A DNA stretch of 64,000 nucleotides from NCBI RefSeq assembly GCF_037975245.1, contig NC_092572.1, positions 11,231,769 through 11,295,768 of the forward strand. Reading direction: 5' to 3'. A program made the position numbers and the translations under genes. Origin of the DNA: Apostichopus japonicus. Lineage: Eukaryota > Echinodermata > Holothuroidea > Aspidochirotida > Stichopodidae. Under the pieces are notes generated by a model. It saw only the letters and a list, made by a program, of their open reading frames with translations. It did no database searches and was not told the origin of the DNA. Position 1 is the first letter of the stretch. Every line of letters starts with the position of its first letter. Of this stretch, positions 492-38,800 are shown piece after piece.

Positions 492-1174
492 TTAATGTTT
501 GGCCATTACTATATTTCCTTCCATTGGCGTGTATCCATCTTCGGCTAGGCTTTCACATGAAAGTTTCCTAGTCAGACCAATCTCGTTAATTTCCTGTGAC
601 AAAGAAGCAAATAGTATAACGGGATAGAAACCAACCGTCTTTATTAATAACTAAATACAATGCATTAGTTAAACTTCAGGAAAACATATATAATGACCAT
701 GTACATGTCTTCTAGCCATCTTTTTCGTTCTATTGGTATCATAATATATTGAACAAATTTATTTCCCTCTTGATAAGAATGTAAGCAAATTGTGAACACA
801 TATACACTATAGTGTCTGGGTTTAACTGCTTCCCATCAGTATTACAAACTGACAAAAGTGGCTTCGTTCAAGGCTAAGAATTACGTACTTTGTAATGAAA
901 AACATGAAAACTATATCCAAACGTCCATTACGTCATAGACTCCTTTAATATAAAGGGTACATCTTCACAGATAGGAATGCCTTCCATTACTTTCTGCATC
1001 TTTCGTGTGTTTATATGATAACTTGAGGAATTAAGACGAACGAACAATTCTAGTGTGCTTGTATTACCTACCATACTCTGGTCAGTCATCCACGTACGCA
1101 GTGTTGTCCGCAGGTCTCTCAAAGGCGGACGATCTGCAACTTCAATCGATTTACAATTCATCAAGCACTCCAAA
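492..1174 (-). CDS. Gene A exons K7-K8: helix I and YTPM tail
   Basis: K7 (1072-1174) reads ECLMNCKSIEVADRPPLRDL, matching the RTK pattern CW..xP..RPxFxxL. K8 (492-593) encodes a 33-residue tail ending DGYTPMEGNIVMAKH and a TAA stop at 492-494. YTPM fits the YxxM consensus for PI3K p85 SH2 docking and sits where B has YMSM and C has YIIM. Confidence 0.72.
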
Positions 1175-2230
1175 CTGCAATTTGAATATTTGCGGGTATA
1201 CAATGAGTATTACCTTTGTGCTACCTATGTGCTGTTAAACACACGAATCCCTCTTCGTGATTAGACAATGAGTAATTATTTCTAATATACTGTTAAGTTG
1301 GGGCACTCCGGCTCAATTAGTTCGGGCTCCGTCATTAAATAAGTAGAATTAACAGCAGATAAAGAGAAACTCCAGACATAGATATATTTGTAGAATATAA
1401 GCTTTATCTATTCTGTGGTGATATTGTTGCTGGAGTACAGATCCAGAATAGTGTATCTGAACTACACTCTCTGAAGTCTGGAATGCTAGTCTTTTTGCAT
1501 ACTAAGAAACTACATTATTTAAGTCATTAAAACTTCCTGTGAAGGGGCAATAACCTTTCTGTGACATAAACTCTTGGTCACAGAGTCTTTTACTTATAAT
1601 TACTAGGGGACATAGGAGATGGCTATGACTAACCACATTTGTATGCACATGAGATGCAACAGGTTGTCATCTGTGGTTAAGCATGAATATTTCATGGAAT
1701 TAAGACAAAGGGGGCTTCTACGAATATGATGTGGGTGAGGGGTGAATAAACTCGGGAACAGGAAGCATAGTAGTTACTCTTTAGACAAAGAGGCATAGAA
1801 GCACATGTTTAAAGTAATATGTTGGGGATACAACTACATACTACATTGCAATACACTTAAAGCTCCATGATATATTCTATCTCGACGGTCTTAACATGTC
1901 TCTTCGGTATTATTGTGTGGTGAATAAGCACACAATCACGATGTTTACATTTTTTGCCAAAACGTCGGCCACGTCACAGAGATCGAGCAAAGGAATAATT
2001 CAAACCAGAGGTGTCCCTTTCTTCGTTATTGTTTTATTCGATATGAAAACATTATTTGAACAGATTTTCTTAAAAGCGATTGAAGATTGAAGGAACGGTT
2101 ACTTGGTTTTTTTAATGGAATACTTAATATGGCTTAATAGGGTTGAGGTCATGTTAAATTCTGCATCTGAAAACTTTTGCAAAGAAGCACGTAACCCACC
2201 ATTCACTTAATTACATACAATTTTACTTAC

Positions 2231-4893
2231 ACGAAGAAAGGGTATTTCTGGTCGCGCAATCCCAGTATTTGTTCCAACGTTTGGTTTGAACCTGCTTCAA
2301 AGAAAACCGAAATTTTGACAGTATCGTCTTATTGTAATCAGGGAGTTGCAATGAGTAAAACAATAGGTATGTATCGAATATGTTTTTCATTCTTGAAGAA
2401 AATGCACATGTTAATACTGCTGTTCGAATTGATAACGTCTACTTTCTTTAAATTAGCAAAGTTTTGCTTCAAATTCCTGAATCTGTCAGCAATTGTAAAA
2501 TTACATTTTCTATAAATAAACGCTTACAATAATTGTTTCCTCTTTTACGGGTGATTAACTGATCATACTTTCAAGAATTTGATGCTAGATCACGGTCATT
2601 TGAATCTAACACCTTGAAGCTTAGTCAACGTACAATGCTGTAGTTACGTAACTGATCAAATGACGACTTGTACCTACCATACGATATCATTTTCCAGACA
2701 CAAGTTCCCGTAGACCAAGAATCACTCGCCCATGTGTACTCGTTCCGTGCTTTTGCTTCAATTGGAAGTTCAGGTATCGTTTCCTTTACAAAATTATATA
2801 TGGTTATGATAGAATAAACGATCATAACAAAGATGTTGGTTATTAACAATTGTAATAGTATACGCCTTTTTGTACAATTGCAACTGTTAATGAAAAAATA
2901 GGTTTGTTTTGACCGTTCATTAAGTCTTAACCTTCATAATGAAAACAGGTTGACAACACTTCCGATTAGATTAAAAGTATCTAATGGTTATAACTTCAGA
3001 CTGTCTGGAATTGGACACTTGGAGGGAAAGGTAAGATTTAAATTTGCTGTGTCATGCTGTGCCCTTTCTCTAAATTCAACGACAGTTTCGGAGGTTATCC
3101 TAATGCTTTGCAGATTTATAATAGGAAATATGGTACTGCCCCAGGGTCCCTTAGATGGTATGTGTTTGTTGAATCTCTTTTCAGCTATCTTGAAAAGCTC
3201 TTCTTTCATTCAAATACATAAAATGAAAGCTGTAATTCCAACAGCTGTATAACTTACCATTTTCTTCATAGCTATTACCTTCCTCGAGGCATCTTCCTTG
3301 AGGCAAAAATCGTACAGTTTGCAGTACTTATTTTCTGTCATCAGAATTCTTCTCAATGACAGCCCAGGATGTAAGAACTGTGTGTATCGGAAGATACAAT
3401 TAAGTTAAGGTTTAAATTAAATCACAGAAGCACCAGTTTACCTCTATATGCGCAATAATAAATTTTTGCTGCTAATGCAACTTAATTATTGGCCTACTGT
3501 GTATACACACACCTACAGCCATCTGCATGTTGGCAAATTTCTAGTTATCACGCTCAGAGTAAAATTATATTTTCTAACTTAAAAATCTTAAATATCTTCG
3601 ACAAATACAAACTCCAAGTCGCTCTATTTATGTATAAATATGTTATTGGACTTTTGCCTTTTAATTGTGATGATTACTATCTTTTTAATTGTGACATTCA
3701 TAACTACAATACACGCTTTTGTCAAAACTTCCGTACATTTGAACACTTACGAGAGGACTCATCGACTTTTTATCAATTCTGGAGTTACAATTTGGAATAG
3801 TTTGGACAACAAAATAATAACATTCAAAAGTATTCATTGCTTCAAACAAAAAATGCAATCCATGTTACTCAACGATTATTATCATTAAGCAGTGATTTTT
3901 TCTTTCTTGCTATTTTTCTATGTTCTTCTCTCTTTTCTTCTTCCTCTTACTTATCCTTTGTATTCTTGCGTTAATTGTTTTGTAAAGGGGGATTGCTCGT
4001 TAAAGATCTGCTTCTTCGGTCCTCCCCCCACCTCATTGTATGTTAACTATTAACCATTGTATTTATATTATGTGGAAATAAATCAAACTCAAACTCTAAC
4101 ATAATACATTTCTACAGAAATTTAAATAGGATCAGCAGTTACCGAGTTTTCATAGTATTGGGTTAATATCGGACCAATGAAATGTTATTTTCAAAGAGGA
4201 CTATACAATGAATACCACATATGAGCTTAAGACTGTAACGCAATGCTTAAACGTGACGCGCCAAATCACTGAGAAAAGCGTACTTTCGTTTGACGCTTTC
4301 TTAACAACAATGTGATTAGCGTCATCTAATAGGACGCTTTCGTTTTACGGGCAGTTGGACAATAATTGATTTACTCCGTGTGTTACGATGAATTCCATTC
4401 CTTGCACGACTTGTAAGCACAGATCCAGAGTATGTGATGACATCACTTTTCCGTCAGTTTCTTGAACGTCTCGTAGTAATTCATCCAATGATCCCACAGG
4501 TTGGTACTCTTGCAGATGGTATATGTGCTATCAATAAAGGGAAAGACACTTTTTTTCACAAAATTTAAACATAATGGTCCCCTTATGTTGCAGTTTATGT
4601 AAATATATATGTTTAGAAATTGATTTTAATAACTGAATATAGATTGCATAATAATTAAGGATACATCTTTTCCACTTATGTATATTAAATGATAATACTA
4701 ATAAGCTGATAATTCCATTACCGTTGTCAATACAGATCCCTTCTGTCTTAATTACGTTAACATGATCAGGAAATTCCATCAGCTTCTGCACGTAAACATC
4801 CCACTGAAGTTCGTTTTTCATTTCCTTGTCGTCTGAATTAAAAAAGGGAAAATAACTGGGTAAAGTACACACACACACACAGACACGCACACA

Positions 4894-4944
<51 letters not shown>

Positions 4945-5261
4945 CGTTTACCTCCATTTCATTCAACAGAGTATGTTCAAAGTATCTCATTCTAGATCTG
5001 TCTTTAGGAATCACATATGATTTCGAGTTGCTTAGCATCACGTTTGATCTCTATAGTAAGGCAAATATGTCACCAAAACAGAACTAGTATTGTTCGATAC
5101 AGGTGACAAATGCCTTACAGTGGAATTACGACCTTCCTAAGGTATTCCATAAACTGTTGGTAACAGTATACCCTCAGGGGCATAACCACCTCTTTCACTT
5201 TATTGTTGACTGTTCTCTTTAACTGAATATTATTCTTTTACCTTCGTTATTACTGTACTTC

Positions 5262-5356
<95 letters not shown>

Positions 5357-5670
5357 ACTATATATATATAACTATATATATATAACTATATATATATATA
5401 ACTATATATATATATAAATGAAAATTTAGATAATTTTTATTGTTATAAATTTATGTGATGTCAACTGTATACTTCTTGATATTTATTTATATGGAAATTG
5501 AATTGGAATATGTACCTGAAGGTAGAGAAATAAAAACACATGTTTTATTTCCCGGCGTTTTGTTTATCGTACCAATCCATCGGTTTAAAAGCATCCCTTT
5601 CTTCAGTTGGGCTACAAAACATATCTCTCTTTTTGTGTAGACATTGCGCATCAACGAGCCTTCCGTCAGC
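2231..5670 (-). CDS. Gene A pseudokinase exons K1-K6
   Basis: K1 (5516-5670) carries the glycine-loop region LKKGMLLNRWIGTI and strand beta 3 CVFIS, where the lysine is Ser. K2 (4722-4832) is the alpha-C region (WDVYVQKLMEF) with no Glu at the salt-bridge position, then NVIKTEGIC. K3 (4375-4527) has the hinge LQEYQPVGSL and helix E GMEFIVTHG, but starts 2 nt short. K4 (3258-3377) has FLHPGLSLRRIL and YDFCLKED. K5 (2678-2783) has RNEYTWASDSWS. K6 (2231-2291) is GSNQTLEQILGL and following residues. Apart from K3 the phases chain as in genes B and C. Confidence 0.75.
3480..4100 (+). mobile_element. LINE remnant: reverse-transcriptase C-terminus and 3' end
   Basis: Plus-strand reading has the typical end of a non-LTR reverse transcriptase: LKILNIFDKYKLQVALFMYK, then HNYNTR, and in another frame TIWNSLDNKI with FKQKMQSMLL and a stop at 3888. 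At least one frameshift separates the two parts. After the stop comes a T-rich 3' region ending in AATAAATC with a short CAAACT repeat near 4097. It lies in the gene A K3-K4 intron, opposite in strand. A dead 5'-truncated copy of a CR1/Jockey-like LINE. Confidence 0.7.
4866..5417. repeat. (AC)n/(AT)n microsatellites
   Basis: (CA)n at about 4866-4894 adjoins (AT)n at 4896-4940. A second (AT)n block at about 5262-5345 grades into a higher-order TATATATAACTA array to 5417. The first flanks the K2 acceptor of gene A, the second lies in the K1-K2 intron. Confidence 0.9.
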
Positions 5671-6352
5671 CTAGAATAGTAAACTATGTTCAAGGAAGCA
5701 ATTACATGAGCTATCATCACTTGATTGTTCTATGGCTACTATATAAACTTGGCACTATGCCATGGATGTGGTTAAAATATTCTTTTATCCGATATGTTTA
5801 CTCACATCTGGGCCGAATCACGTGTTATGCATCTGTATTTATCACAAAATAAGTTTCCATATATTTTTTCATGTCTCTTTAGTTGCACATATATACTCAA
5901 CTAGTATGTTTATTCCTGTTTACAAAATTGGAATAATATTAAACAGAGCCAATTTTGTAGACTAAATTGATTAAAAAGTAAAAAATGAAGTGTTTATTTA
6001 ATAGTCATTACAATGTGTATGGTACGTACTCTTTGTCCATTTGCTACCGAATAAAACAACTAGTCTACATTTTCTTACAGCAACCTTGACTAACAGCTCA
6101 AAGTTAATAAGTCAACAATGAATAGCAGTGCTGTAAATGATACACTTGTTTACAATGAGGAACATCCGGGAATAGTTAGTAAATTTTGCAACATTTGTGG
6201 TGATTTTCATAATGTTAACAGACCTCTGAGGAGTAGTTTGCAAGTTTGCTGTCATGTGACACGGTACTGCCATGATACTGACAGACCATGCTGTCCACGA
6301 ATTGTTAGCTTTTAATGTATTATGCAAAATTGTGTTCAACATTAAATCCTAC

Positions 6353-6399
6353 CTTCAACAGAGTCTGTACTCTCGTCGGGGAGTTTGGGAAGTGACATA
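6353..6399 (-). CDS. Gene A juxtamembrane exon (MSLPKLPDE)
   Basis: A 47-nt exon, phase 2 to 1, reading MSLPKLPDESTDSVEG. It aligns in length and sequence with B 19706-19752 (MALPKVPRE) and C 37934-37980 (MVLPAIPQE). Acceptor TTTGCAG and donor GTAGGA are clear. With partial Ig2 only 350 nt upstream, the TM exon and other juxtamembrane exons seem deleted from this copy. Confidence 0.6.
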
Positions 6400-6751
6400 C
6401 TGCAAATAAAGGTAAATCAGATACTATATCATTCGAAGAGTTTCGAGCAAAAGACATTTCCACCGGTAAGCAATGCGTAATAGTACCAAATCACAATGAC
6501 AGGTAATTTAACGTCATAGCCATCTCATATCATTTTGCTTTAGTTACATGTATTATCATTGTTGGAATGCTACAGACTATAAGTTTAACTTCCAATGACT
6601 AAACAATCAGAGGACTCAACTGAAATCAAGGCATATGTTCGTTAGTTAAAAGAGGGATTACATCTACATAGTACTTAAAGAGCTATGAAAATTTAAGAGA
6701 AAGATGACCCAATGACATTCTTTGCCATACATCGGTAAAACCCCTACGAAC

Positions 6752-6955
6752 CTTTATTTATTTTCAAAGTTACATTGAATCCCTTGTAGTTGGTTTCTAT
6801 GTAAAAAGTCGTCCAGTCGGAGGAGGAGGAGACTTTCTGCTGTACGTAAACTTCCGGAATGGGATTTCCATTAGCTTCACATATGACGTTAGCTTCTTCG
6901 CCTTCTTTAACTTGCCACTGTTTAAGGGCAGGGTAAATCGTTACGACTGGCAAGT
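6752..6955 (-). CDS. Gene A exon 3: first part of Ig domain 2
   Basis: A 204-nt phase 1-1 exon. It has an I-set-like start (PVVTIYPALKQWQVKEGEEA) and a B-strand Cys (NVICEANGNP), but ends at FNVTLKINKG before any F-strand Cys. I found no exon for the missing half. The exon is about 100 nt shorter than the complete Ig exons of genes B and C. Confidence 0.65.
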
Positions 6956-7796
6956 CTATTAAAAAAAAATACAAAGAAAAGTAAACATAATAGCCTAACC
7001 ATCAAAACGATTCTAATGTTTATTTACAATTTGTCTACGAAAACGATAATTGACCATAATTAACGTAAAAAGTAGTCCTCGCTTTGAACTTATTTTTTTG
7101 GCAAATGGTTAACTGGGATATGTAAAATATCATATCTTCCAAATATGTATTATTTCTCTTATCTGTATCGGTGTGAACAAAAATGTATTAATTGATTTCC
7201 ATATATGACACGCAAGGCACGAATAATATATTTCCATCAATAAAAGTAAAATTAAGTGTATCGAACGATTGACTGGGCTTGTGTTATAAAAAGAACAAAG
7301 TAAATCGACCATATCAAACAGAGGAACACGCCATAGGTCCATATCATACGCACTATGACATTTGTTTAAAATTAAACAAACATTATAAGCTTATTTGTAT
7401 TAGACACTAGGAAGAGAATGACGCTTAGATATTTGGTGTAAGAATATATCATGAAATATAGCTTTTATTTTGGTAGGTTTTTATAACGCTTTTAGTCAAA
7501 CAATATTTTTATCAGAGATAGCAATTGAACATTAAGAATGTATTTCAATAAAACTGACAGCGAGATGTTTGTACCTGGTTGATATTATTTTGAAACAATG
7601 CTCAGTTTCACTTTCTGCAATATTCAAAGTTAAAACATCGAAACTTTTCTGATATGATTAAGTTTTAATTACTAAACAATTTCTTATACTGTACGAATCT
7701 CTTACATCTCTAAAACGTGTTTAAACATATAAAAGATCACATTGTTAACAACTTAAAACGTGAAACTAATGTTTACAGCTTGAAGCATGTTATTAC

Positions 7797-8099
7797 CTAG
7801 AACCATTAACGTCACGTCATGCGTTTCTACATCTTGTGCATTAGATTATGATTGTTGAATACATGAGTAATTTCCAGCATCTTCTAATTTAATTTGATTT
7901 TTCACTAATGCAGATATCGAATGGTTTAAGTTAACGGTCAAAGAGAAATCCTTATATCCAATGGCAGTCCCTTCTATGTAGGTAGCAATCATGTCACCTT
8001 TGTGTATCCATACCAACGTATCCAGAGAAGAAATTAGATGACACATCAGGGAGGTATGTTCCCTTTCAATGACAACTTTCACATTAACTGAATGTTGTG
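7797..8099 (-). CDS. Gene A exon 2: Ig domain 1, with in-frame stop
   Basis: A 303-nt exon, phase 1 to phase 1, as for every Ig exon in this cluster. It shows a B-strand Cys (SLMCHL), a Trp (LVWIHK) and the F-strand DAGNYSC motif. One codon group after that Cys the frame hits TAA (7846-7848), yet the remaining codons still read as a G-strand ending in VTLMVLG and stop at a good GT donor. The stop therefore looks like a point nonsense change in a once-open exon. Confidence 0.75.
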
Positions 8100-8643
8100 C
8101 TAAGAAAACAATAGTTTTAAAGCAAAAATAATAAACATTAGCTATATTTGCATGCGTGCTACTTTGATATATTATCGAAACGGTCTATATATTTGGAAAC
8201 TGAGCAGGACGTTATCATCCATCGGTGAAGTCGTATTGCTACATAGACAAACACACAACAGTTTTAATATTCAAATCGGTCATTTAGTTAGGTTTAATCC
8301 ACAATATTGATGTGCCTACTTGGTCCGTTATATATATAAAATATGAAACTTTTTTTGCAATAACTTAAGGTTTTAACCTGGGATGTTTTTCAACTTTTCA
8401 TACTTGTTAATATATCTAATTTGTTTTATCAAGGGTGGTATCACAGAGTCTTGATAATGGTGCGAACTTGAAGTGTAACTGTATACTGTCTGTAGATTCA
8501 CTCTATTTCAGCAATGCTGATTTCACGTAGATGGCATTTAGACTAAAATAATATCAACGTTTACTGCATCTGACGTGTTTAATCGCAGAGCAATTATGAT
8601 GTAAGCACAGGTAGAAGTTAAGAACTCAGTAAAAAGCACTTAC

Positions 8644-8758
8644 CATTAACCGTTTTCAAAAGGGATGTCAGTACAAAGAAATATATTGTTTTGGATGGTA
8701 TCTGAAGAAACATTGTAAAACCTTGAAAGATGATGTTCTGGTCCGTGTTAACGTCCAT
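8644..8758 (-). CDS. Gene A exon 1: signal peptide
   Basis: ATG at 8758 opens a short exon with a hydrophobic core (TIYFFVLTSLLKTV) and ends in phase 1 at a GTAAGT donor. The phase joins in frame to Ig1 at 8099. An inner Met gives a shorter leader with the same hydrophobic stretch, so the exact start is uncertain. Confidence 0.65.
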
Positions 8759-13234: not shown

Positions 13235-14397
13235 CTACAGACTAGTCGTAATAATATCATGTCTGTCTACCGTTACGTGCGCACTCATCGACATGTATCC
13301 CTCCTCGTCATCACTTACGCTTGGCGAAGAGCAACTGCTGCTCTCACTATCATCGTCTGGCATCAGTTTCTGAAATAACAATAGCACAGCAATCCTTTTT
13401 TCCAGGAAATATATCTTTCTTAATACGACAAGGTTGTAAATATTCTACAAACAATTCAACGTAGATACTAGCACAATATTGATTTTATACGTAATTTTTG
13501 ACCTTATTTATAGGGTTTATTATGCAACTCTATCAGAAAACACCATTTGACGTCTAAAATGTGTGGGTTTTTTTCTTCTTTTTTTTTGGGGGGGGGGGTG
13601 TGGAGGGCTGTAAGAACTCCATTCATGCGAGGATCCTCAACGACTCAAGGTCACACCCCTTTTTAATAAAATCCTTGTTCCGTCCCTCGTGCATAACCTA
13701 TATGTCTATGTTTGCTGGTGACTTACCACGTTACACTTCAACATTTGTGAATGAGGGTAACAGTATACTTATGTGAGCTATATCACTCTATTTGTATGTT
13801 TAAATTCACCCGATGGTGTAGGACAGTTTCTAGCTGTTGCAGTGTTTTTCGAGTAAAATTCCAGCAAAATTGATTGTAAGGTGTTTCTTGTTTGACGACC
13901 AATACTCTTGATTTGTCACACACTTGACAAGTTAGTTCAACTACAATACAAGGTATTTTTTCTCTAACATTCGGGATATATAGGAAATCCAAAAGCAAAA
14001 GCAAAGTGATGTAAAGTATTAATTTTCACAAAAATTGGCGTAACCAATCCTGGTTCCTGATGGCCAATATTTATTGTCAACAGTTCACAAATGTTTTGAT
14101 GTAATATTATCGTAAAACATTCCCTAATAAAATTATAAATAGGCATTTACATTTACTAGTAATGGTGTCAAATGCAATACAAAAACGTCAATTTTAAAGC
14201 AAAAATGTTATTGCCAGAACATTTTTTATAACGGTAACACGTTGTGACGATAATATCACATAATATATACGTATATTTCATTTAATAAACTCACGATGCC
14301 CTCTTCCGATAACCAGGTCGATAATGATTCTTTCAAATTTCGCAACGGAAGTCGATTCATGGGATCTTTTGAAAAACATTCTTGTAAGCTGTTTTGA
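13235..14397 (-). CDS. Gene B exons K7-K8: helix I and YMSM tail
   Basis: K7 (14295-14397) reads SLQECFSKDPMNRLPLRNL, the CW..DP..RP region with RP changed to RL. K8 (13235-13369) is a 44-residue acidic, serine-rich tail (DDDSESSSCSSPSVSDDEE) leading into GYMSMSAHVTV and a stop. YMSM is the classic IRS-type p85 SH2 site. The Ser/Asp/Glu run also resembles casein-kinase-2 substrates (inference). Confidence 0.82.
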
Positions 14398-17300
14398 CTG
14401 TAAACAGAAGCAACGACATCACATCATCACACATCAGAAGTCATAAACTGTCTTCATAATGTTAGAAAACACTGTATTTCTTGTGACAGGAAAACCTTGT
14501 AAATAAAGACTCTTAATTAGGATTTATGTCATTTCTAAGGAAATATCATACCTCAAAATCTGAATACATATTTTTTTTATCTCCATGCATGAACAGATGA
14601 ATACATTTGAGTTCAACTCGTGTCAATCCTGGAATGCAAAATTCCATGAGGCTAAGTTAAAAATCAATAATCAGTGCAAAGATTCCTGTTTTAATTGTAA
14701 ATGTCTGTGACTCTTTTATTTACATAATGTCACGGAACGTTCACAAACAAATATTACATTTTTTATAAAAGAGAGAATAATATAACGTATTTTCGTGTAC
14801 ATAGTTTACACAGCAAAATAAATGAATTGCATAAAAAAGTTAACATGCAACATGTTATGTCTTGATAGGATCATCGTAGATCATAAATGTATGATTCTAC
14901 TATTTGTTTCCAAGAACTTGTAAACCCACAAGACGCAAACGTTACCTCATAGAACATTCATAAAGTCTTCTTCAACATTATTTATTTTAGTACAACAATT
15001 TTGTTTATATTTTGGTACAGTCTGTGGAAACAAGACTTGCTGAGAGATTTTTTCCTTGACACATTTTAGGAATTCATTGTGTATAATTATTGTTTCAGAG
15101 TTAAAGTGTAAACTAACTCACACATCAATTGGTAAATCACGCTGTCCATCTTCTGTTTCACCGTCGATGTCCACCTTTATCCCATGAGCTTAAAAAAAAG
15201 GGTGAACGTTGTCCAATAGTATAATAAATGTATCAATTAATCAATTTAAATAGAAACACATTGTGTAGTAAACTTCACTTAGTGGAGAAAAAGATATAAT
15301 TGTTGAGGAAGGAGGCACGACAACATCAGTGACATTAGCACTGATAATTCTGCTGGAAAAGACTGTATAGTTACATGGAGTGTAGTAAAAAGTAACATCG
15401 TGTGATTCCATTTACGTATTAAATTATTTCTAAAATTCATTGTTTATTGAATTGTTTCTTGTTTACAGATCATTAAAGGAAATACTTGCAAAGATCATAT
15501 TCTTACCGTATGCAAATACGTCACAAATGCATATTGCCACAGACCAGGAATCACTTGCCCAAGTATATTCGTTGCGTTCTTCTGTCTCTGGTGGCAGGGT
15601 CGGTCTATTCTCCTATTGAAAAATAGAAAAGACGAAACGTAACTAGAACTGCACCTGCCTGCAAATACGCAGTATATACTGCGCGTGGAGTGCTTACAGT
15701 ATTTGGAAACAATTTTCGTTTGTTAATGGTGTTATTTTTTGGGCGGACAATATACCATTGTGTATAGCCATGTAGGTTCCTACAAAGTGAGAGCGGATGT
15801 GAGCGCCGTTAAAAGGCTCATAATATGTTGGCTATGCAGCTAGCCGCCTGTGAAACCTCAAATGTACACATACTATATGAAACTTTAAGTTACTTGGTCA
15901 GTAATGCGCACGCGCACTACAATAATAAGTACTTCAGTTATCACGAACCGTTTACCTTTGCATGTTTGTGATGTCTCACCTGTACCTAACCCCACCAATG
16001 TATAACTGTCATTTTTGTTTTAAAAATGAAGTGCTTCTTACCTGTTTTTAATTCGTTTTGAAATCAATTGCTTTTACAATCAATCGGCCTTGAGATGTCA
16101 TATAACTCTATGCTTAGCTTATTCCAGAAACAAAGGCAACTTTATATATTTTAAGGAAGCCTATTCTTATACAATATTCACCGATGAACTCATAAAGAAT
16201 TATTCTATATTATCAAAAATTTCCCTTTGTGGATATTCATAACGTCTTTTTCACAAAGTTCCTAGCAACCATATTTATTAATCCACTGCAATATTTATTC
16301 AATAACTTCAACTGACGAAAGAAAATACAGAAATTGAAGAAATCAGTAATGCCCGTCTACGTTTGCATCAAATCGCAGGACATACCAGTTTTTTGTTGTC
16401 GTTTTGTGGGAGGGGTTTGTGTTCTACATAAAGAATTCGAAACAATTCGATATGAAACCGGGTCTCAATTGAGTTCATGTATTATAAGAAGGTGTTCAAA
16501 GTGACTCATTATCTTTTCTGAAGTTCCTTACTGATACTGGTACTGCCAATATCTCTAAAAAAAAATACCTGAGGACTATTAAACTACATTATCCATTGCT
16601 GACGCGTGAGCTTCATTCTTTATCGTTATATAAAAGATAACTAAATTTTTCGAAACTTTTTTTTTTATTTTTAAGGCACACAAATTTTAAGATCGTTTAG
16701 TGATTGTCACGAAAATCCAAAACAAAAGCCATTACACAATAATGTTGCTTTTCTAAAGAAACTTATTGGCTGTGATAAAAATAACACTACGGTGTGTTGC
16801 AATTACATTATTTGATATATATGCTTACCTTCCCTTTAATCAAATCGACTTTTTTCGAGACATCCTCTTTGAGACAAAAGTCATAGATTTTACAGCACTT
16901 TCTTTCTGTCAACAAAATTTTTTTCATTGAAAGTCCAGGGTGCAAAAACTGTGAACAAGTAAACGACAAAACTTCATTGTGAAACGTGGCGCTGAATAAT
17001 GCGTTTAATGAAATTTAATAACGTACGTGTGATATGTGTACTAAAGTTAATGATATTTGGATATTACCTTCGAAAGCGTACTGCATGAGACAAAAATACT
17101 AAACTCTTCTCTTCTAGATTGTGTTGTAAAGAGCACATACAAAGTTTTTGGGTATATCTTGCACACATATAAGCTGCAATCACATGCAAGTTTTTAATTT
17201 AATCTGCCGAGTTTAAGTTTAAGATTTGTATTTCCTTTCAAAAGTAATTTTTTGAACTGTGCGATGACAATGTTATTAGAAACAGCATATCATGAAAGTT

Positions 17301-20300
17301 AAATGTCGTGATCTGAGCCTTATGTGCAGCTTAATGCCGGACCCTCATTTTCTGCGCATGCTCAAAGCTTCTGATTAGTGTAGTTTAAATGGTAATTGAC
17401 GTCCATCAAGGAAGTAACACTAATTTGCTAGGTGGTTTGCCTTCATGACGACATGACATGCGGTTATTTAGAATTTGTTGTTTGGTAATTATTGTTGTTC
17501 TGTAGGTTTGTAGAGCATAAATCAGTGTAAAACGCTGATAGTCATGTTAAGTAATCGCTCTCTGTCGCTTAAAGACTTTAGTTGCCTGTACTGGTGCTCA
17601 CCCTCCTGGGATATACTAGTAGTCGATACTATTAGTCGTACTCTGTAAATAGTAGGCTACACTAGTAGTACAAGATTAAATATTGGCACTATATCGCTTA
17701 GAACCCAATACTCATACTTATACTTTGTACCAAAGGTAATTTTACTTATAATTTTTCATCATGTTGCTGTACTTGTACCAGAAGTTTGTTTTTTGGTAGT
17801 TTGGGACTTGTTTTCACCTTCACTTTAAGGTGAGTAAATTATGTCAGTTACAGAGATATCTATCTCCTTACCCCATATGTAACGATCATTTCCATTCCAG
17901 CTACAATTTGATTTGCATATTCCAACACTTCTACGGTTGTAATAGAGCTGGCGGTCTGTTGTTTTCCTACCATCCAATCATCTAGTGTACCAACCGGTTG
18001 ATAGTTTTGCAAAAGGAAAATATTCACTGTAAGAAAGAGAGCAAAACATCCCATTAAATTGATAAATGGATATTTAGTAGATATATAACACTTATAACTT
18101 CGAAAAGGAGCTCAAACATTGTACTTAATGGATTCAAGTAATTGTATTAACACATACCTCTGTCGATACAAAGCCCCACAGTTTGTATCAGTGCTCTATG
18201 GTGAGGCATTTCCATGACCTTCTGAACGTACATATCCCAGTGGTATTCTCTCTTTACTTGTCTGTCTTCTGTAGATTGATGACAATCAAAAGTTGTGGTA
18301 TTTTCAGTGTATTCTTGTCGCTTTTTTAAATTAGGAACAAAACATATTTTCATATTTCCCCTTAACTTCCTAAATGTCAATATCATATTGCACCCAATCA
18401 ATACTCCCATACACCTCTGAGTATACATCTGCAAATTTTAACCAATTCCGCTGGTTATGTCTTTACACGCACGCTACCCTTGTTATTGTTGGTACCTCTA
18501 TTATTGTATATGTTAAGATATAAATATAAATGGTACCTTTCACAGAGGTGACGAAAACCGACTTCTTGTTACCATTTTTGTTGACAATTGTTCCCATCCA
18601 TCTGTCAAGTAACATTCCTTTCTTCAAATGAAGTACGAAACAGACTTCATGCCTCTTGTAAATTTTCGCGTGCAAGGACTTTATTCTGAGACTAGCGTAG
18701 TCTAAGTAAATTTTAAAAAAATGCTTAACAACAGTAATCAATGTGTTAATATATATTTGTATGTTAATGCAGATTCTCATGCCTTATCAGTTAAATCTGG
18801 AAAAGGTGAGTACACGTTAATCAGTTGAGGCTGATGTGTGTTATAATTTTTTTTAACATGTGCTACATTAATGACCAGTTGCTACTGAGAAGGACTTACA
18901 AACAGAAAATACTAAACACACAATCCTATGCATAATGATGGACTGGACTAACCAGACTACTTTAAAGGGTTTCGCCAATAATGGTGTACATATTTTAACA
19001 GAAAGTGAATGACACATTGCTGCAAAAGTCATACTTACAAGTTAAACATAGTAACAGCTATCAATCAGTCGTAATCAGTCATTTGAAGGCAACAGCCTTT
19101 GAGTAATGAATTGGTCTGTTAGTATTTTTCCACAGTTACATATGCTGACAGGTCTGATTATTGATTAATGGCTGTCTCGTTTTCGCATTCCTAACTGATC
19201 AACCCATGTACATTGTGTGACATTTTAACCATGAGATTCAGTTAGTTGGCGTGCCATTCTCACACCCTTATAGTCCCTACAATCCACTTATCGTACTGTA
19301 CGAATAAGTTACAATTATGGAAATATCTGGCGCTATTCATGAACTCATGTTGTCATTGCGTTCATATATACTGATTGTTAAAATGTACATTTTTGTTACA
19401 AATAGTATCTTATATGTAACTACGGTCAACGTCGAAGGTGAATCTGTATCACAAGGTGGTGTAATAAGAAAATTTGAAAGTCTTCACTTCTACTTTTGAA
19501 AGCATAAGATGAAAGGCGACTACTTAGCGTATTACGACAAAAGCCTTGGTACATGTAATCACCGTAAAAAGCATTCGTATAGTCTGTAATGAGTTTTCTT
19601 GAAGGAATCACTACCAAATGGCACATTTATTTACCAATATAATTTATGAGTAGCAAGTTGAAGTCACAACTTTTTGTGCGTAAACAATATCGATATCATA
19701 CATACCTCTATAAGAACGCCTGTTCTCTCTCGGTACCTTTGGCAGCGCCATGCTGCAACAAAAGAAATATATTTATTTTGATAGCAATAAGTCGTGCAAA
19801 CGTTGCGCAAAAGCTTATTTTTCATTGCAAGATGGGCGTGTTCTCTTTCATCATATTGACTAAAATAAATGAATGCTACATTGGAAATTTCTATAGAACG
19901 CAGAATGCTTTCAACAAAATGTGACTCGAACCACTATCGTCATGAATAAAAGTACTGTGCTCCCTAAATATGATCTCTGGAGCTTTGTAACGATCGCCGT
20001 ATTATTATTCCCTTTATGACGGATGCCAGTCAGGAGTTGTGGTATCTGGCAGTTTATTATGAAATTAATATGTTTCATGTTCGTTTCAAACATCACAATT
20101 ATTGTAAGACTAGCTTCTTATGGTGTATTAAATCGTGAGTCTATAACATACCTCTGCTTTCTGTTAGCTGGTGTATTGCCAGTTTTATCTGTTCGGATAT
20201 GACGTAAATTTGGTTTTAATTTAATGTGTTAAAAGTGGAAAGATTTGTTTCAATACATGAACTGTGTTACTGTTGATCACACTATCATTTTTAATTTTCA

Positions 20301-23300
20301 AGTCAATCGCACCTCAACGTGTAACGCTGCTGTATTGAGTCATGTTTTTTTCATAGTCGGAATTTCACGTGACAGTCATACAATGCAAAAGTCAAACTCA
20401 AATGGTTATTGCAACATATAAAACATTGAAATTAAGTTAGTGAATTAAAGCTGATCTCAAAGAAGATACTTGTATGGCTCTCACAGTCTCAGGGGACATT
20501 CCTTACATATATGGGTTGGTCACATCGCCCGGGACAAGTATAAAATCATAACTCGGCAATAATTGCGACGTGTATTAGTCTTCAACGTTGGTGTAATACC
20601 TATCTGTGCAGAACATACAGCCATATGTTCACCACCTGCTATCGTGTCATCTAATGAAGTACATATGGTTTCCGTATCTGGTCTACAAAGCAACGATTAA
20701 AGAAATGAAAACCTGTTATCACATGATATACGAGTAGGTTTTTGACAAACATGCACGGGTGGATGGATGTATATTATGTTATCTAATCAGAGTCTAGTGT
20801 TGGAAAGCAAAACTAATAGCAATCGATGGATGATTTACTATTCGTTATGAATCATTGAAATGAACATACACATTACTGTGCCTTTAAGATGATATTTGTA
20901 ATAACAAGTGCTTAGTTGCGCTTTTATTTATTCTGCTGCACTTCATGTTTAACTCAGCCGACATGTATTTCCTGTTGTTTGAAAACTATTTTATTCTGTT
21001 TATAAATACACAGAATTTAATAACTATTTTTGCTGATATTTAACTTCTAGTTTCGAACACTAGAACTATCAAAATATTGAAGTACTCATAACATCTCAAG
21101 AATCAAGAGATATAAAATAACAACATTTATAAAGTTTTACGAACTCACAGGGTAGCCTGGGGCAAATTTGTAATCTTCAAATGACATAGACAAGGGCAAT
21201 GAAACCCTCGAGCGCCCTTTTAACGATATGCATGTACTATAAGCTTGAATCTCAGTTAAGGGCCAAATATTCACGTTCATCTTTGGGGTTTTTTTGTGGG
21301 GAAGGCAGTGGGTATTTATATTGATAACTCAACCATACTATATAATATGTTATCTTTATATAATCTTCAGGGTTTCCTTGTATGACCTTCAGCATAATTC
21401 TTTCCATACGACAAAATTGTCATGCATTTTAACTTTTAAGTATCAATGTGTTACTACTGAAGTCATGATCTCCTTGTAGCAATGAGTGTCACTCATAAAT
21501 GTTTTGTTTTTTCTTTGATTGAGAGTTCTCATACTACGACTAAATGATGATAGTTGAGCAATTATTAAGAAAATTGCAATTAGGCATATCTTTAATTGAT
21601 ACATAAACTGTTTTCAGTGAGAACAATAATTATCTTAACACATTAAGCAGCATGTTGCAGTAAATGTATAACTTGCATACTTGAAATCACTTACCGGGTA
21701 ATTGCTGCACTCCTTGTGTCAAGATTAGAAAATGAGCGGACTATCGAAGAAGATGAAAAGAGATATTGAACTTGTAGAAATTAGAACACTTATGTATCTA
21801 ATCGAAATAACAAGCTGTCAACAACTTAAACAGTTTAATAGTATTTAGCACAACGTAACTAAGCACTTTCCGATAGCCATAGGTTTACACAGCTGTAATT
21901 TTAAATTAGGAGGTAATATCATGAATGTGTGCACCTTTGACCGAAAACTGAACCGAAGAAGACATGATTATCATTCATATTCATTTTATGAATTGGTTAA
22001 ATTCCTGAACTGTAGTGTGGTCATTTATAACAGTTAGTAGCCACTGAGTGCCTTGCATATAGGTATGATCTGAAGCAGATCAAGCAGGACATTGTACATA
22101 GAACAAGAAAAAAATAGATATGTGATCTTACTTACATCTACGCACGTTTCTGTAAATTATAAATGTACCCACGAGGACTGCAGCCAAAATCAATGCAGGG
22201 GTAATGATGATCTTGTTAAGGTTCCATGAATGAAGGTCTGTGCTTTCTAAGATAAAAAAGGAAACTGATAATGTTAAGCAGAGCTTAAAACAAATGAAGA
22301 AAATGGTAAACAATATAACGAAAACTGTAGTTGGGGTGTGTGCATGTGTGTTTGGGTGGGTGGTAAAGGGGGAGGGGGTGAATGTGTTCATATATTTAGA
22401 CCTCACAACTGGTAACATGGAACAAAAGAAATTCCTGTCACAAGTTGTCGAACAAAAGAGAACAATAGTGTTCGGTTGTCCAGACAAAGGGTTAGAATAA
22501 AGGTAAATGTCATCGGTTATAGCTCATATAATAGAAAACCAATTTAAGAGGGGAGAGGTGGTTTGAATGTAATTACGATAGCATGATTGACTTAATCAAC
22601 TAGGTTAGAATAAGTCATATATGCATGGATGCCACAAGTAATTATGTTTCCATGCTTTCCGTATCAATTTCACTTACCAGCTTGAAGCTTCATCAGAAGG
22701 GTAACTGACGAGTTACAATTCTGTTCCTCCAACTCTGAATCAGCTGTGCAAATTACTTGAGCGATTTCCGTCTCAAGACGAAAATACAGATCATTGACTA
22801 TGTCGAAATATTGGTCTTGTTCATTCCTTTGTGCGTATGTTGTACTATTTACCTCAAAAACTTCACTTGACTTGGTCAACCAAACCAAGGTAACATTTGG
22901 GTTCCCTCCCATAGCAAAACATGTTAGCTTATGGGTTATGTCAGGATCAATACTGATATTTGTTTTAATTATTTCCTCTTGGAAAACTATGATGATTTCT
23001 GGAGGTACTGTTGAAAAAGTAAATAAATGATGTTTGAAAGTTATCCAATGGTTTGCTTACAGTGCATAGTGGTTTATACTTTTTAAATATTAATAGTAGT
23101 TTGATGGACTTAATGTTAAATGGTTGTAATTATGAAATACGACTTTCCCTAACAAACTGCTGTCGAACATTTCGTAACCATGTAAAACTATTTATCAAGT
23201 ATTTAATGAAATAATCAAATTTTTAGTGACTCACCAAACGTGGCGATCTGCAAGTGAGTGGATACATTTCGCATTTCGACTGGATCTTCTATTTTGCATT

Positions 23301-23610: not shown

Positions 23611-23660
<50 letters not shown>

Positions 23661-30140: not shown

Positions 30141-30159
30141 GAGGCAGATCCAGGTTTCA

Positions 30160-32057: not shown

Positions 32058-32215
32058 CTAATTTTCCTCGCTTCGGACATTTCCTTCCATAATTATGTAC
32101 CCATCGTCATCTTGTCTTCCTTTTGATGAGGTTGTAACTCCAATGGCTTCAACATGTGATGTAAGAAGCTGTTAAAGAAATTTAAAGGTCAAATAGTATT
32201 AAAACATTATTATAC

Positions 32216-32299
<84 letters not shown>

Positions 32300-32732
32300 T
32301 AGATAGATAGTTATATATAGTTATAAAGTTATATATAAATATATATAGTTATATATATACAGTTATATATAGTAATATATATAGTTTTATACATATAGTT
32401 ATCTATATATAAATATTTATATCTATAGTTATGTAGTTAGTTATATAGTGGTAGTTTAATAGTTACAATATGTATTAAATGATTAGCATTGAAATCGGAA
32501 TAAAAACGATGTATTTATCAAAATCAACATGCGAAGAGAACTACTGCTATAGTAAGGTACTTTTATGCACTCTTCAGCTAACAATAAGAATTCAATAACG
32601 ACTGAGAAAGAGTTATGTCATATAAAATGAACCTGAACTTCTTCTTTCCAGTTTAATAGTGCTTGGCGGAGATCGCTAAGAGGCGGCCGATCATGTGGGT
32701 TTTCTGATTGACAATTCTTGAAACAGTTTTGG
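32058..32732 (-). CDS. Gene C exons K7-K8: helix I and YIIM tail
   Basis: K7 (32633-32732): QNCFKNCQSENPHDRPPLSD, the RTK helix G-I region with the Arg of RP kept. K8 (32058-32168): 36-residue tail ending DDDGYIIMEGNVRSEEN, with a TAG stop at 32058-32060. YIIM fits the p85 SH2 consensus. The flanking GY..MEGN is shared with A (GYTPMEGN), so the site lies in a conserved tail motif. Confidence 0.83.
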
Positions 32733-32831
32733 CTACAAAAATAGTAGAAACAAAACTGACGTTGCCGTTGTCTTCATTTTCTTCTTAAATTGTACGTTTA
32801 CCATGAGCATATACTGCGGTGGTGTTAAGCG

Positions 32832-32865
<34 letters not shown>

Positions 32866-35800
32866 TATATGATATATATTAATAAAAATATTTGGTAACA
32901 TATGCCTGCTATGATGATCAAACCATCATAAAGCGCACATGTTGCTCTTGTTTCTTACGAGTAGATTCCTCACTAATTACTAAGATGGTCCATATTTTAC
33001 ATCACTGGACTTGCATTGAGAATTTATTCCTTTTTCATATTTAGAGAAGAATCCAGCTTTTTCTACAAGTTAGAAATTCCAGTACTCTATCTCAGCCGAA
33101 TAAGTAATACATACACATAACTCGGGCATTGTATGAGTGTTTCGGGCGCCATGGCTTCTTCCGTACCACTGATATCTGGAATGATTGGAAATAATGATAT
33201 ATCAGGAAAGTGTGAGATATTTTGAGTAGTTATATTGAATAGCAGGAAATGTATAAGGAGTCTATGTAAGTGTCGTTACTAATCAATATTCCTTTATCGA
33301 CTGCAGCTTAATTGGCATATCACTTCAAATTACATACCATACTTAATATATTTGCGTTCAACATAAGAATCAGTGTGCTATCCTGTGATACAAAGTAAGC
33401 TTAATATGGAATATGTTGAATTTAGCTACATATTATCAATTGTAGCGTTTGCTTGGTAAATATTTCTAGCCAACCGAATTTCTCGCAGAAAACGGAGAAA
33501 AAAGGTATTACCAAACGTCATGAGTTTCAGAACGCACATCGCAACAGACCATGAGTCACTTGCCCATGTGTATTCATTTCGAGCTTCTGCCTCAGGAGGA
33601 AGAGGTGATCTTATATCCTAGACAGAACGTGAACGAATGCAATTGATAAGAGGATTTCAATGAAATCGAGCATATCTGTCTGTTGATTATAGTGAAAACA
33701 GGTACTGTTGTCTAATAAAATGGTTATATTTCGTTCCTTAATGGATAACCGCGTACGTTTCTTCTTATGTTATACCGGGTAACAAATTAGATTGTTTCTA
33801 AATGGTCATGAAATAGTGACCTGTTTTTAAATAGATAACAGGTATTAACGATTTAAATAAAATCAATTGACTCCTGGATAAAATCTGCTGAGGATATGGT
33901 CTACGCAGAGATGTTATTCATTCAGTGTGTTATTTTAATAAAAAATACATGATATGGAGGTATCGAGATAACACTATCGTCGAATATAAGTACTCTGCAA
34001 TAAACCCATGATTTGTACTTTAATATACTAGTTTCTCACGTACCGTAAAATTTGACTTTTCAGCTTTCAACAAAATCAATCAGTTTGGAATGTTATAGTT
34101 ACTGTGAATACCTTCTTAATTATCGAAACATACTTTTCCTTTGATGCAGATGACATGTTTCCGGGCATCTTCTTTCAGACAGAAGTCGTACAACTTGCAG
34201 CAGCCATTTTCAGTGAAGAGAATTCTTCTCGTAGAAATACCCGGATGTAAAAACTGATAATTGTAATAATATATAATTTATGATAGGCAATACACAGTGA
34301 CTGAAAGCATAACATACATTAAACTGAATATGTACCAACGTGGCTACCACATGATCAACAATTTCTGCTTAAAGGTGTTTTTTTCTAAACGAATTTTCTT
34401 CTTGCTCATCTGCTTTCAGATTTTCCCGCGAACAGAAACTTCCCATTAGTATCAAATGTGCACCGACGTAAAGAATATCCACATGGTGTATTTTAGGTTT
34501 TCACGAGACACCGTAAAACATATAACGTGCCAATTAACTGCCTACAATTCTTCAAATCTGCATTTTTATTTGCTATCGTATATCGACTTATTTTACTTAT
34601 TCTCATTTGATATATTGTTCATCAATTTTATAAATGAATCTTAAATGATGTACCAATACGAATGGTGGAAATATCAAATAAATGCATACCCCATAAGTTA
34701 CGATGAATTCCATTCCCTTTAAAATTTGCAATCCGATGTCAAACAATTCAGAAGAGGCAAACTCGGCATTAATTCCTCTGTAATCGTGACCATGAATGAC
34801 AAGATTCTCATGTAATGATCCAACTGGAATATATTCTTGCAATAGATAAATGTTTTCTGTAGGAAAATTAGGTCGTTCAATTACAAAACATGTGAATGTC
34901 TTTTTCAGCAGGCAGTGATGAAAATACAAGCCAGAAAAAAAGCACATCAAGTGATCACTTTTATACTAAAATTAATCGATATGAAACGCCGCGTCTTCAC
35001 AATATTAGGCGTAATGCAATTCATCAGACTGGGAACTAAGGACGTATTTAAAAAATTTCATTCTAGATTTTCCGTATACCAGCAAATTATTGAGGCATGA
35101 ATTTCAAAAAAGTTGTTGTGTCGTTTAAAAAAAATCGTTTAAATTTTTTGCTTTCTGTTTTAAAATTTTGGTTTTTGGTTTTAAATTTTGGGGGTTTATA
35201 TATTTTTTGGCATGCCTTCGTTTTTCTTTCGTAGAATTGTAAACTTGTTCTCGGAAATTTTTTGATTTAGATTCCCGGAGTGCCAAGCATTTGGAAAAGG
35301 GAAATGGAAAACGATATTATGTTATTATGTTATTCCTGGCGGGGAATGGTTTCCAGAGAAAGAGAACGACCAAAAGGTACAAATGTACCAGAATTGCCCC
35401 TATGTTGCTAGTGTTAGCAGTACTTGCATCGGCGTAACTGCCAGTGTCGGCCACGGATGCGGTCAAGCTCTAACTGACGTTGCCCCAGTTCCTCCACTGT
35501 GTCGAATTGATAGCAGTCAAATCCAAATGCATCTATGTTCTCTTCTCTTTTTTTTTTAAATCCCAACACTGTTTCGTAAGAAACATTTGACTAGATATTG
35601 CCGAAAACGATAGTTACCGAAAACGGTGCGTAGGATATGTTAAATAGAATTCAATGTCGTGTAATAATAGCAGTCGCAAAGCCCTCGATATTTAAAAATA
35701 ATAATTTACGCAAGATTTATTGTAAACACTTTTTAGAATTTTTTATAAATGGTAAAAACACGTTTTATCTATCATAATACATTTGTTTCTTATGCTTGTG

Positions 35801-38800
35801 CAAATTTAATTATTGTTGAAATTGGCAACTCTTTTCTGTTAAAATGTGATATGCGGGCTCGCGTATTTTTTTTCCTAGGAGGGTTAGGGGCAATTATCAT
35901 ATATAGGCGTATCCAAACCCTCGCGCATGCGTGTTACTCATACACACGCGTTACTCATTGATCGCTGTAATACACGTGTGGGCACTGTGTACGCTGTACA
36001 AAGCAGTAGATCTCCGCTGTACAGTTTTACACGTAATTCAGTTTGCTTTTTGGCCAAGGATTATCAAGTGAGAATTGAATAATATAAGTGATGGGACGCA
36101 GGCTAAAGAAATACAAATTAAAGCGCGATCAAATCGTCACTTCAATTAGGCCCTATTAATTTTCTGGAGGTGTTGTGGCTAATGTAGGTGACTTAATAGT
36201 TTGCGGCTGGTGATTTAATATCTGATAGTAATATCTGATAGAACTAATAGTTCATAAAAGCAGGCTTAATTTTGTATGTAGGCCTACTATATTAGTATCG
36301 TGTATAGAATTTTAAAGTTTACCGTAACATTAAAGTTTACCGTGAAGCTAGAAATGCATGTAATGTAGGCTAGCAGATTAACATTAACCAAACCATTAAA
36401 TTAATGTCCGTCGCGCACATTGATGACAACATATCAAATCCGTACATTGTGTCTAAAATCTGGGTGCCAGTCGAACAGGTCTCCATCGCTGCATGAACGC
36501 ATATGCAAAACTTGAATCGCGTCGCACACACTGTATGTACTACTACTAGCCATAAAACTTTTTACGAGTAACACGCATGCGCGAGGTTCTTTATACGCCT
36601 ATATATGATAATTGCCGCTAACCCTCATAGGAAAAAAATATGCATGCGGCTCGCTTACGGCACGAAAAGTCGAAATTCACGCCAAAATGGCGAATGCCAT
36701 GGGTGACATTTTAATCGATTGTTAAGGTTGAAATTGTTTTTTCAAGCATTCGTGTTTTTTACTGTCGAAATGAGCGTACGGCAAATCGGTGTACTCAAAT
36801 CAGAAAAGGCTAGGGTTTATTTCTCCTTTGATAAACCAGAATACACTCTGCAACAGAAACAACATCTTAAATAAGATCAATTGAGAGGTTGCTGTTATTG
36901 ACAGTGTAAAATGGAGCTTCGCTTATCAATATCTGTCGTGTTTTACCTCTGTCTGTTAAAATGCCTTCGGCCTCGACCACATTCATATGCTTGGGAAGTT
37001 CCATCAGTTTTTGCAAGAAAACGTCCCATTGAAATTCAGTTTTCATATCTTTGTCCTCTGTTGAGAGATATATTTAGAAATGTTTTAATTGTAGCTTCTT
37101 TTTTTCAACGGTATAATGGCGGAACACACGGCGGAACACAAGCCTTACACGGGTTTAAATTTACAGGCGTCAATCATATATAGATATATTAGGTATACTT
37201 CAGTTTCCCGTCTTTGACCTGTGACGGCCCATTGTTGTTTTTTTACGAGAGGTGGTTTGTGAGCTTGAATTACTCTGAATTGCCTGTCAATTCGTAGTTA
37301 CCATTATTGCGATTACCTTGAAATGTTACTTTTGGTGACAATAGTTTCATTTCGCTTTATTGAAGAATTGGACTATTGATTTTCAGACAAATATTGTTTC
37401 TTTTTAAAAAAAATTCAAACTGTATTATGTCAAATAAATCATTTTCAATGCATATTTGAAGCTGTCAGCTTGCATTTCTCCCCGTTCAGAATAGATACGT
37501 AAACGCACTTTTTCTTTCCTTTTGATTCTTCTATTGTCCCTAGCCACCTTGTCAAAAATAGCCCTTTCTTTAGTTGAGCAACGAAACAAACTTCTCTCTT
37601 TGTGAAAATACGCGTCATTTGTAGACTGTCCTTTGGCCTGGAATAGTAAACTGAAAATTGCATGGAGAAGACAATAGAAACAAAGTGACGAGAATTTTTT
37701 TTTTTCATAAGTGTTGGTTACTATCTCTCTCTCTTCACCTTCCTCTCTCACAGATCTCTAGTTGCTGCATTGAGAGTCATATTGTCCACTGAAAGTAAAA
37801 CAGCATAATTTCTACGTATGTGGACGAGGCGGTTTAACTCAATAAAATGTCCGAACAGGCCTTTTCTGTCAGTTTTGTGCAGTGATATATTTGTTGTTAC
37901 CACTTGAATTAATATATCGTTAACAGATCATACCTTGTATTGTCTCTGCAGCCTCCTGTGGTATAGCTGGTAAAACCATGCTATCAAAATAACAAAATAT
38001 ATATATGAAAAACACTTTTTACATGAAACGTGTTCTATATTTGAATGGAATAGAAACATAATAAATTATGGTTTTACTTATAGTATGTAGAATCCATTGA
38101 TTTATGATGCGTTAAAAGCAATTACCCAAAATACATTTAGCTTACCTTTGAACTTTTTCGTGTTTTCGTTGTTGCTGCCCATGCTGATGTCGTACTCCTT
38201 CTTCCGAATCTTATAAAATGTAAATATTGAAACTATTATATCACTGTACAAATATCATGCGCTTATTCCTTTTTAGATTACATGACATTCACACTTAACA
38301 TTTTGAATGTCTGCAATGCTGTTTTCATAGAATACTGGTAACGGTACCTTGACTTATGTTTGGCAACGGTAAATGGTGCTAAAGGTAGAAATAGTCGCTG
38401 TAAGGAATGTTTAATACGTAACGTTTAAAACTGGAAACAGATGGCGACAGAGCTGATGATAATGGGTATGGTTGTCTCTTATGTTTGTCACTTGATGTTT
38501 AATCATCTCAGCGAGGAGATGTGTTCAGTCAGTAAGTTGCCAAGTTCTTCTAACAAAGTTATAGAACAACAAATGCTATGCAGCTATGAAGACATCAAGT
38601 GGTAACATCATTTTTCCCGTAAAGTACAAAACACACTTCTCAGATAAGGTCATGTGTAGTATCTGTTCCCTTTCGAGGGGAATGGTGATGCACAACCGAC
38701 GATGATCACATAGTCACAGTCCCGATGTAAGGGAACTGGGGTTGGAAGCGGATCAGTCGTTTGGTAGTTTGGTTTTGTGCCCAGGTTCTTTCCTGGCGAC

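Follow-up and report, generated by a model that had tools for sequence, protein, structure and literature searches.

A 64-kb window of Apostichopus japonicus contig 12 (NC_092572.1, positions 11231769-11295768), the whole stretch of DNA analyzed here, carries three genes on its minus strand, A, B and C, that are predicted to be members of a large family, in this echinoderm genome, of single-pass receptors with an immunoglobulin (Ig) ectodomain and a pseudokinase of the tyrosine kinase fold. The retention of the dead domain, together with a tyrosine motif in the C-terminal tail, suggests a family of scaffold receptors used in recognition. The span of main interest, 492-37637, runs from the stop codon of the gene A tail exon to the first kinase exon of gene C; the gene C ectodomain lies outside it, at 43488-40041. 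The original prediction, made from the sequence of the window, described three tandem Ig receptors. All three are real, but the count was too low, and as assembled two of the genes, A and C, are possibly damaged. When the genome (671.6 Mb in 35 contigs) was searched with the gene A domain, three further copies were found beside the window, giving a cluster of six on contig 12: gene F at ~11.208-11.213 Mb, gene D at 11.297-11.302 Mb and gene E at 11.393-11.399 Mb. F closely resembles B, as E does D, and the D and E sequences are 93.2-93.9% alike across ~11 kb.

A kinase fold with lost catalytic residues

Six kinase exons, k1 to k6, are present in each of A, B and C and can be aligned between the copies. 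Exons k1 to k5 were joined for each gene and scanned, leaving aside k6 and the stretch preceding it. The Pfam model PF07714 (PK_Tyr_Ser-Thr) matched with E values of 5e-26 (A), 1.5e-24 (B) and 3.2e-25 (C), and the Pkinase model with values of 6e-15 to 2e-14, so the match to the kinase fold is not due to chance and the receptor-tyrosine-kinase-like character first proposed for the domain stands. Three distant members found elsewhere in the genome (L079-L081) matched PF07714 with E values of 1.4e-21 to 2.2e-20, and a profile built from seven family members placed an EGFR construct, FGFR1-3 and EphA3 at the top among the best 60 of 842 PDB matches. Only generic bacterial kinase models were matched in a scan against NCBIfam.

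The catalytic losses listed in the original prediction were each found in the minus-strand DNA. The glycine loop reads LKKGMLLNRWIGTI in A, LKKGMLLDRWMGTI in B and LKKGLFLTRWLGTI in C, and the beta-3 VAxK position reads VFIS, VFVT and VYVS, respectively. At the position of the alpha-C Glu, placed by eye 10 residues before the His preceding beta-4, A and B have Tyr and C has Phe. HRD is replaced by HPG and DFG by DFC in all three genes, while the catalytic Asn position is occupied by Arg (A), Lys (B) and Arg (C). Compared by eye with an active kinase, the domains no longer have two of the glycines of GxGxxG (the first and the third), the Lys of VAxK, the Glu of alpha-C, the Arg and Asp of HRD, the catalytic Asn and the Gly of DFG, and they still possess the Asp of DFG, the Glu of APE and the Asp of SDxW. 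Reading errors were rejected as the source of these losses because the same losses recur across many copies. All six copies of the cluster have HPG and four have DFC; D and E read YFC, so that the Asp of DFG is lost in them too. Given the loss of the VAxK Lys, the alpha-C Glu, the HRD Asp and the DFG Gly, the domains of A, B and C are classified as pseudokinases, and on these motifs they are almost certainly unable to transfer phosphate.

The losses extend far beyond the cluster. A 39-residue probe from the exon carrying HPG and DFC (k4) gave at least 150 matches on 15 contigs, with E values up to 6.4e-4; 150 is a lower bound, as 150 of 248 candidates were scored. Most of these matches lie on contigs 12 and 16, with others on contigs 1, 2, 3, 4, 8, 10, 11, 13, 15, 17, 18, 19 and 20. 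A general search for kinase exons, in which 139 of 1266 candidates were scored, returned none on contig 16 and two on contig 12. In 40 k4 loci that were read, HPG was present in 37 (the rest having HPD, HPS and HPC) and DFC in 38 (the rest having YFC and NFC), frequencies biased upward by the selection of these loci for similarity to the gene A exon; neither HRD nor DFG occurred in any of them. The catalytic Asn position was Lys in 39 of the 40 and Asn in the remaining one. HPG and DFC are therefore nearly fixed in the family. A count of the pattern HPGL..KK (91 places) was dropped, since its reversed control gave 48.

In an alignment of seven divergent members, the other six of which are 29-73% identical to gene A, 29 columns are invariant, including HPG, the FC of DFC, one Gly of the glycine loop and RWxG. 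The seven members are also set apart from the other kinases of a tree by a branch with 100/100 support. Outside this clade are EGFR, FGFR3 and four of the genome's own kinases, including a ROR-like (L001), an ALK-like and a PTK7-like (L005) kinase, all three named from their motifs as we read them. The tree is unrooted, with a root added for drawing only, and 7 of its 10 inner branches are poorly supported. With regard to the FGFR, VEGFR and PDGFR classes, FGFR is among the best PDB matches, and the tree, which has FGFR3 as its only member of these classes, does not resolve the placement. Because the members that were read share their losses and form one clade, the catalytic loss appears to be ancestral to them. 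The earlier proposal that activity was lost before the duplications is supported by the HPG shared by the six cluster copies, its prevalence together with that of DFC at loci elsewhere, and the single clade.

The invariant residues raise a different explanation, namely that HPG and DFC form a re-tooled site with an unusual nucleotide-binding or catalytic activity. Invariance of HPG, FC, the loop Gly and RWxG in seven divergent members is more than would be expected from drift. On the other hand, no VAxK Lys, alpha-C Glu, HRD Asp or catalytic Asn is left, the valine of GxGxxGxV is Arg in our own alignment, and no route to phosphotransfer is apparent. We consider retained activity very improbable.

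Selection on the kinase exons and gene structure

Selection was assessed by the Nei-Gojobori method over the kinase exons, and the deficit of replacement changes was tested with a simple binomial calculation from rounded counts. For A and D, compared without k3, the rate of synonymous change (dS) is 1.20 and that of replacement change (dN) 0.153 over 186 codons (dN/dS 0.13, p 2.7e-16). The pair D and E gave dS 0.054 and dN 0.007 over 240 codons (dN/dS 0.13, p 0.00095), and B and F gave dS 0.036 and dN 0.009 over 239 codons (dN/dS 0.25, p 0.033, from 10 differences). Synonymous sites are saturated in the comparisons A-B, A-C and B-C. Purifying selection acts on the kinase exons: in these pairs of copies within one genome dN/dS is 0.13-0.25 and not near 1, which supports the earlier proposal that the dead domain was kept after its inactivation.

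Gene A has two weak Ig-like open reading frames (ORFs), at 7849-8184 and 6747-7001, which match Ig_3 below its cut-off (E 5e-4 and 8e-4); no convincing transmembrane exon was found for this gene. A juxtamembrane exon (LPKLPDES, 6351-6410) is followed by k1 with the glycine loop and VFIS (5514-5645), k2 with alpha-C (4720-4833), k3 (4372-4527), k4 with HPG and DFC (3261-3380, its first codon being the acceptor CAG), k5 with PIE at the APE position and SDSWS (2676-2783), k6 with RPPLRDL (1069-1179) and a tail exon ORF at 492-650 that ends in LAEDGYTPMEGNIVMAKH before the stop codon. Gene B has eight Ig exon ORFs between 29025 and 22673 (starts 29025, 28101, 26883, 25632, 24842, 24175, 23664 and 23056), a transmembrane exon (22131-22250), a juxtamembrane exon (LPKVPREN, 19704-19763), k1 with VFVT (18535-18666), k2 (18156-18269), k3 (17869-18027), k4 with HPG and DFC (16835-16951), k5 (15505-15612), k6 (14292-14402) and a tail exon ORF at 13238-13444 (SDDEEGYMSMSAHV). 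In gene C, four Ig exon ORFs between 43488 and 40600 (starts 43488, 42503, 41476 and 40944) precede a transmembrane exon ORF (40041-40283), k1 with VYVS (37481-37612), k2 (36945-37058), k3 (34687-34854), k4 with HPG and DFC (34140-34256), k5 (33510-33617), k6 (32639-32737) and a tail exon ORF at 32061-32171 (RQDDDGYIIMEGNVRSEEN, then the stop codon).

An additional exon is expected between k5 and k6. The gene A candidate (1285-1341) is tentative; it was picked by eye and its high score is a self-match. The candidate present in B and F is weak, and C, D and E yielded none. The juxtamembrane exon, in which LPxxP is followed 2-3 residues later by a Glu, was recovered in A, B, D, E, F and the three distant members L079, L080 and L081; it was not found in gene C.

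Diverging ectodomains, a recurrent tail motif and a proposed role

Gene D, like B and C, has a single transmembrane exon, in this case preceded by five Ig exons. Selected Ig-like exons were scanned with Pfam, four from B, two each from A, C and L079 and a single one from L081, and CD80-like C2-set domains are among the Ig domains found. A curated cut-off for Ig_3, ig or C2-set_2 was exceeded by all four B exons and by a single exon each of C and L079, with the rest being weaker. B and F have the same eight Ig domains in the same order, and their divergence follows a gradient along the gene. From a dS of 0.036 in the kinase exons and 0 in the transmembrane exon, it rises to 0.15 in Ig8, 0.27 in Ig7, 0.51 in Ig6, 0.34 in Ig5, 0.76 in Ig4, 1.0 in Ig3, 1.2 in Ig2 and 1.1 in Ig1 (kinase versus Ig1-4, p 4e-29 on rounded counts). 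Because dS rises in this manner toward the distal Ig domains, the membrane and kinase half of the pair has probably been homogenized by gene conversion beneath a diverging ectodomain.

At the other end of the protein, each of the six cluster copies has a tail exon with an acidic-GYxxM motif close to its end: EDGYTPMEGN in A, D and E, DEEGYMSMSA in B, DDDGYIIMEGN in C and DEDGYMSMSA in F. [DE]GYxxM occurs four times in the six frames of the window, namely in the three tails and once on the plus strand, at 31244, compared with a mean of 0.22 occurrences and a maximum of 2 in 50 block shuffles. Among eight distant members, a clear C-terminal YxxM was read in four (YMPM in L079, YVPM in L081, YTRM in L092 and YTPM in L094), three of them with the YxPM form. 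A second copy of the gene A tail exon (EDGYTSMEGNIVMAKH) lies just left of the window on the minus strand (contig 12, 11231307-11231462), ~1 kb downstream of the first.

We favor an explanation in which these proteins are catalytically dead receptors that act as substrate and scaffold, in the manner of ErbB3, and we give it about an even chance of being correct. The CD80-like C2-set ectodomain would bind a cell-surface or soluble ligand, and the pseudokinase would pack against an active partner kinase, which would in turn phosphorylate the tail Tyr. The phosphorylated YxxM would then recruit a protein with an SH2 domain, the p85 subunit of PI3K being the likeliest. A scaffold role is favored because the kinase exons are under purifying selection and the tail tyrosine recurs, and recognition, immune or self/non-self, is the likeliest setting because the ectodomains diverge over homogenized signaling halves. 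The partner might be one of the expanded receptor kinases of the same genome that have HGD in place of HRD. Five exons of this type were read, on contigs 17, 18, 19, 21 and 22, and all have HGDLAARN and DFG; one gene that was read further has a GEGEFG glycine loop, VAIK, the alpha-C Glu, HGD and DFG. Kinase exons of this type lie in arrays on these contigs (L085-L089 and L097). Separately, four dispersed kinase exons of equal score on contigs 4, 9 and 20 each contain one internal TAA, suggesting mobile or retrocopied pieces of a kinase gene.

Several observations weigh against the scaffold explanation. The HGD kinases are candidate partners only, the HGD exons that were read lie on contigs other than that of the window, and the B-F selection test draws on few differences. 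The B-F dN/dS over the Ig and transmembrane exons is 0.49, above that of the kinase half and not greater than 1, so that positive selection on the ectodomain is not shown. The tail motif is also uneven among the distant members, whose tail exons were assigned by eye: in L080 the motif is HLPM, the Tyr being replaced by His, L093 offers no more than an uncertain YEKM, and no trusted YxxM was found in the downstream tails of L095 and L096. Moreover, YxxM is compatible with a YxxPhi sorting signal for AP-2, and a Gly preceding the Tyr is typical of lysosomal signals.

AP-2 sorting is the main rival reading of the tail. The proteins would then be endocytic or decoy receptors, with the pseudokinase serving as a folded spacer or as a dominant-negative dimer partner of active receptors. 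With Met as its bulky residue, GYxxM conforms to YxxPhi, the motif is close to the C-terminus, and expanded receptor kinases with an intact DFG are available to be antagonized. However, the acidic residues before the Tyr, the Met at +3 and the frequent Pro at +2 fit p85 sites, the tail lies past the kinase domain and distant from the membrane, and the lack of any variation in HPG and FC among seven members points to more than a spacer. We regard the endocytic or decoy role as possible but doubtful.

A further set of points against the scaffold explanation concerns the integrity of the genes as assembled. Gene A k3 starts in a phase that does not fit the joint used after k2 by the other five copies, gene C lacks the GT that the same position after k1 has in the other five, and gene E lacks a GT at the k3 donor. 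In gene E, stop codons also interrupt Ig2 and Ig3, the frame is broken in Ig2 and Ig4, and no Ig1 could be located within the 30 kb read. The damage in A, C and E could equally stem from alternative splicing, from an assembly error or from recent pseudogenization. Taken together with an internal stop in one of the 150 matched k4 exons, the damage could indicate that the family consists of remnants of birth and death, with pseudogenes making up many of the copies and common descent alone accounting for the motifs they share. Such an origin is at odds with the low dN/dS of the kinase exons, the GT-AG found at the examined joints of B, D and F, and the preservation of the motifs at 29-40% identity, and we judge it unlikely.

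The scaffold explanation can be extended, tentatively and with a rather low probability, to a paired system of dead and live receptors for immunity or allorecognition. More than 150 tandem and dispersed HPG/DFC pseudokinase receptors, many with a YxxM tail and with gene conversion acting under diverging Ig domains, would signal through the expanded active kinases of the HGD type. If this is true, one of the largest recognition-receptor families of the lineage arose from a kinase that died once.

Relation to known receptors and other features of the sequence

The original prediction did not recognize the family as ErbB3, PTK7, ROR or RYK, and for the first two this judgment holds. ErbB3/HER3 is likewise a receptor pseudokinase with YxxM motifs, and at the level of motifs the six cluster copies and half of the eight distant members resemble it in having a C-terminal YxxM in a dead receptor. 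It differs in having L and furin domains where an Ig ectodomain is found here, as well as in its more numerous tail motifs, its other motif losses and the very high copy number of the present family; EGFR falls outside the family clade in a tree that does not include ErbB3 itself. PTK7/CCK4 also combines a multi-Ig ectodomain with a receptor pseudokinase, but the genome has a separate PTK7-like domain outside the 100/100 clade (L005, contig 8 at 28.49 Mb). The kinase domain of L005 has HADLAARN and CTM for DFG, and its flank is partly N. The receptors of the ROR/RYK type share the receptor-tyrosine-kinase-like fold and have altered motifs in some members. The ROR/MuSK-like L001 of the same genome, unlike the family, keeps HRD and DFG and lies outside its clade, and no ROR or RYK chain is among the best 60 of 842 PDB matches, which separates the family from ROR and RYK by a weaker test than that available for PTK7. 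FGFR and EphA follow the EGFR construct as the best PDB matches of the family profile within the same 60, and FGFR has an Ig ectodomain as well. FGFR and Eph receptors nevertheless retain their catalytic residues (as observed for FGFR3 in the PDB matches), and the present family has CD80-like C2-set Ig domains and is not placed by the tree among the active classes.

We describe a new family within a known kind, the receptor pseudokinases. It is unusual in being so large, in having apparently been inactivated a single time in an ancestor, and in its homogenized signaling half. No description of an HPG/DFC pseudokinase family was found in the literature within reach of our search, which included PMC8662651 and extended to few subscription papers. 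Receptor pseudokinases are usually single, old genes, and echinoderms are known for large innate immune repertoires. As it numbers at least 150 exon copies, was inactivated once in an ancestor, has degenerate motifs close to fixation and carries a recurrent tail of the phosphotyrosine type, the family would constitute a natural experiment on why dead kinase domains are kept, and a diverging ectodomain above a homogenized signaling half gives it a likeness to recognition families.

Upstream of gene C, minus-strand ORFs at 45685-50307 belong to another Ig-like gene in which no kinase exon was seen. Two of its exons were scanned, one giving an Ig_3 match below cut-off and the other no match, and its last ORF contains NYLHIYETL. 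Minus-strand ORFs at 63195-63748 of the window resemble, by eye, a fragment of a non-LTR (long terminal repeat) reverse transcriptase. Elsewhere in the assembly, contig 35 contains a mitochondrial COX1 whose conserved residues are obtained when AAA is read as Asn, ATA as Ile, AGA as Ser and TGA as Trp (code 9), followed by frames for ND4L (identified by eye) and COX2; both the code and this gene order indicate an echinoderm. In addition to this mitochondrial contig, pieces of COX1 are spread over ~16 kb of the minus strand of contig 29 (L083 and L084).

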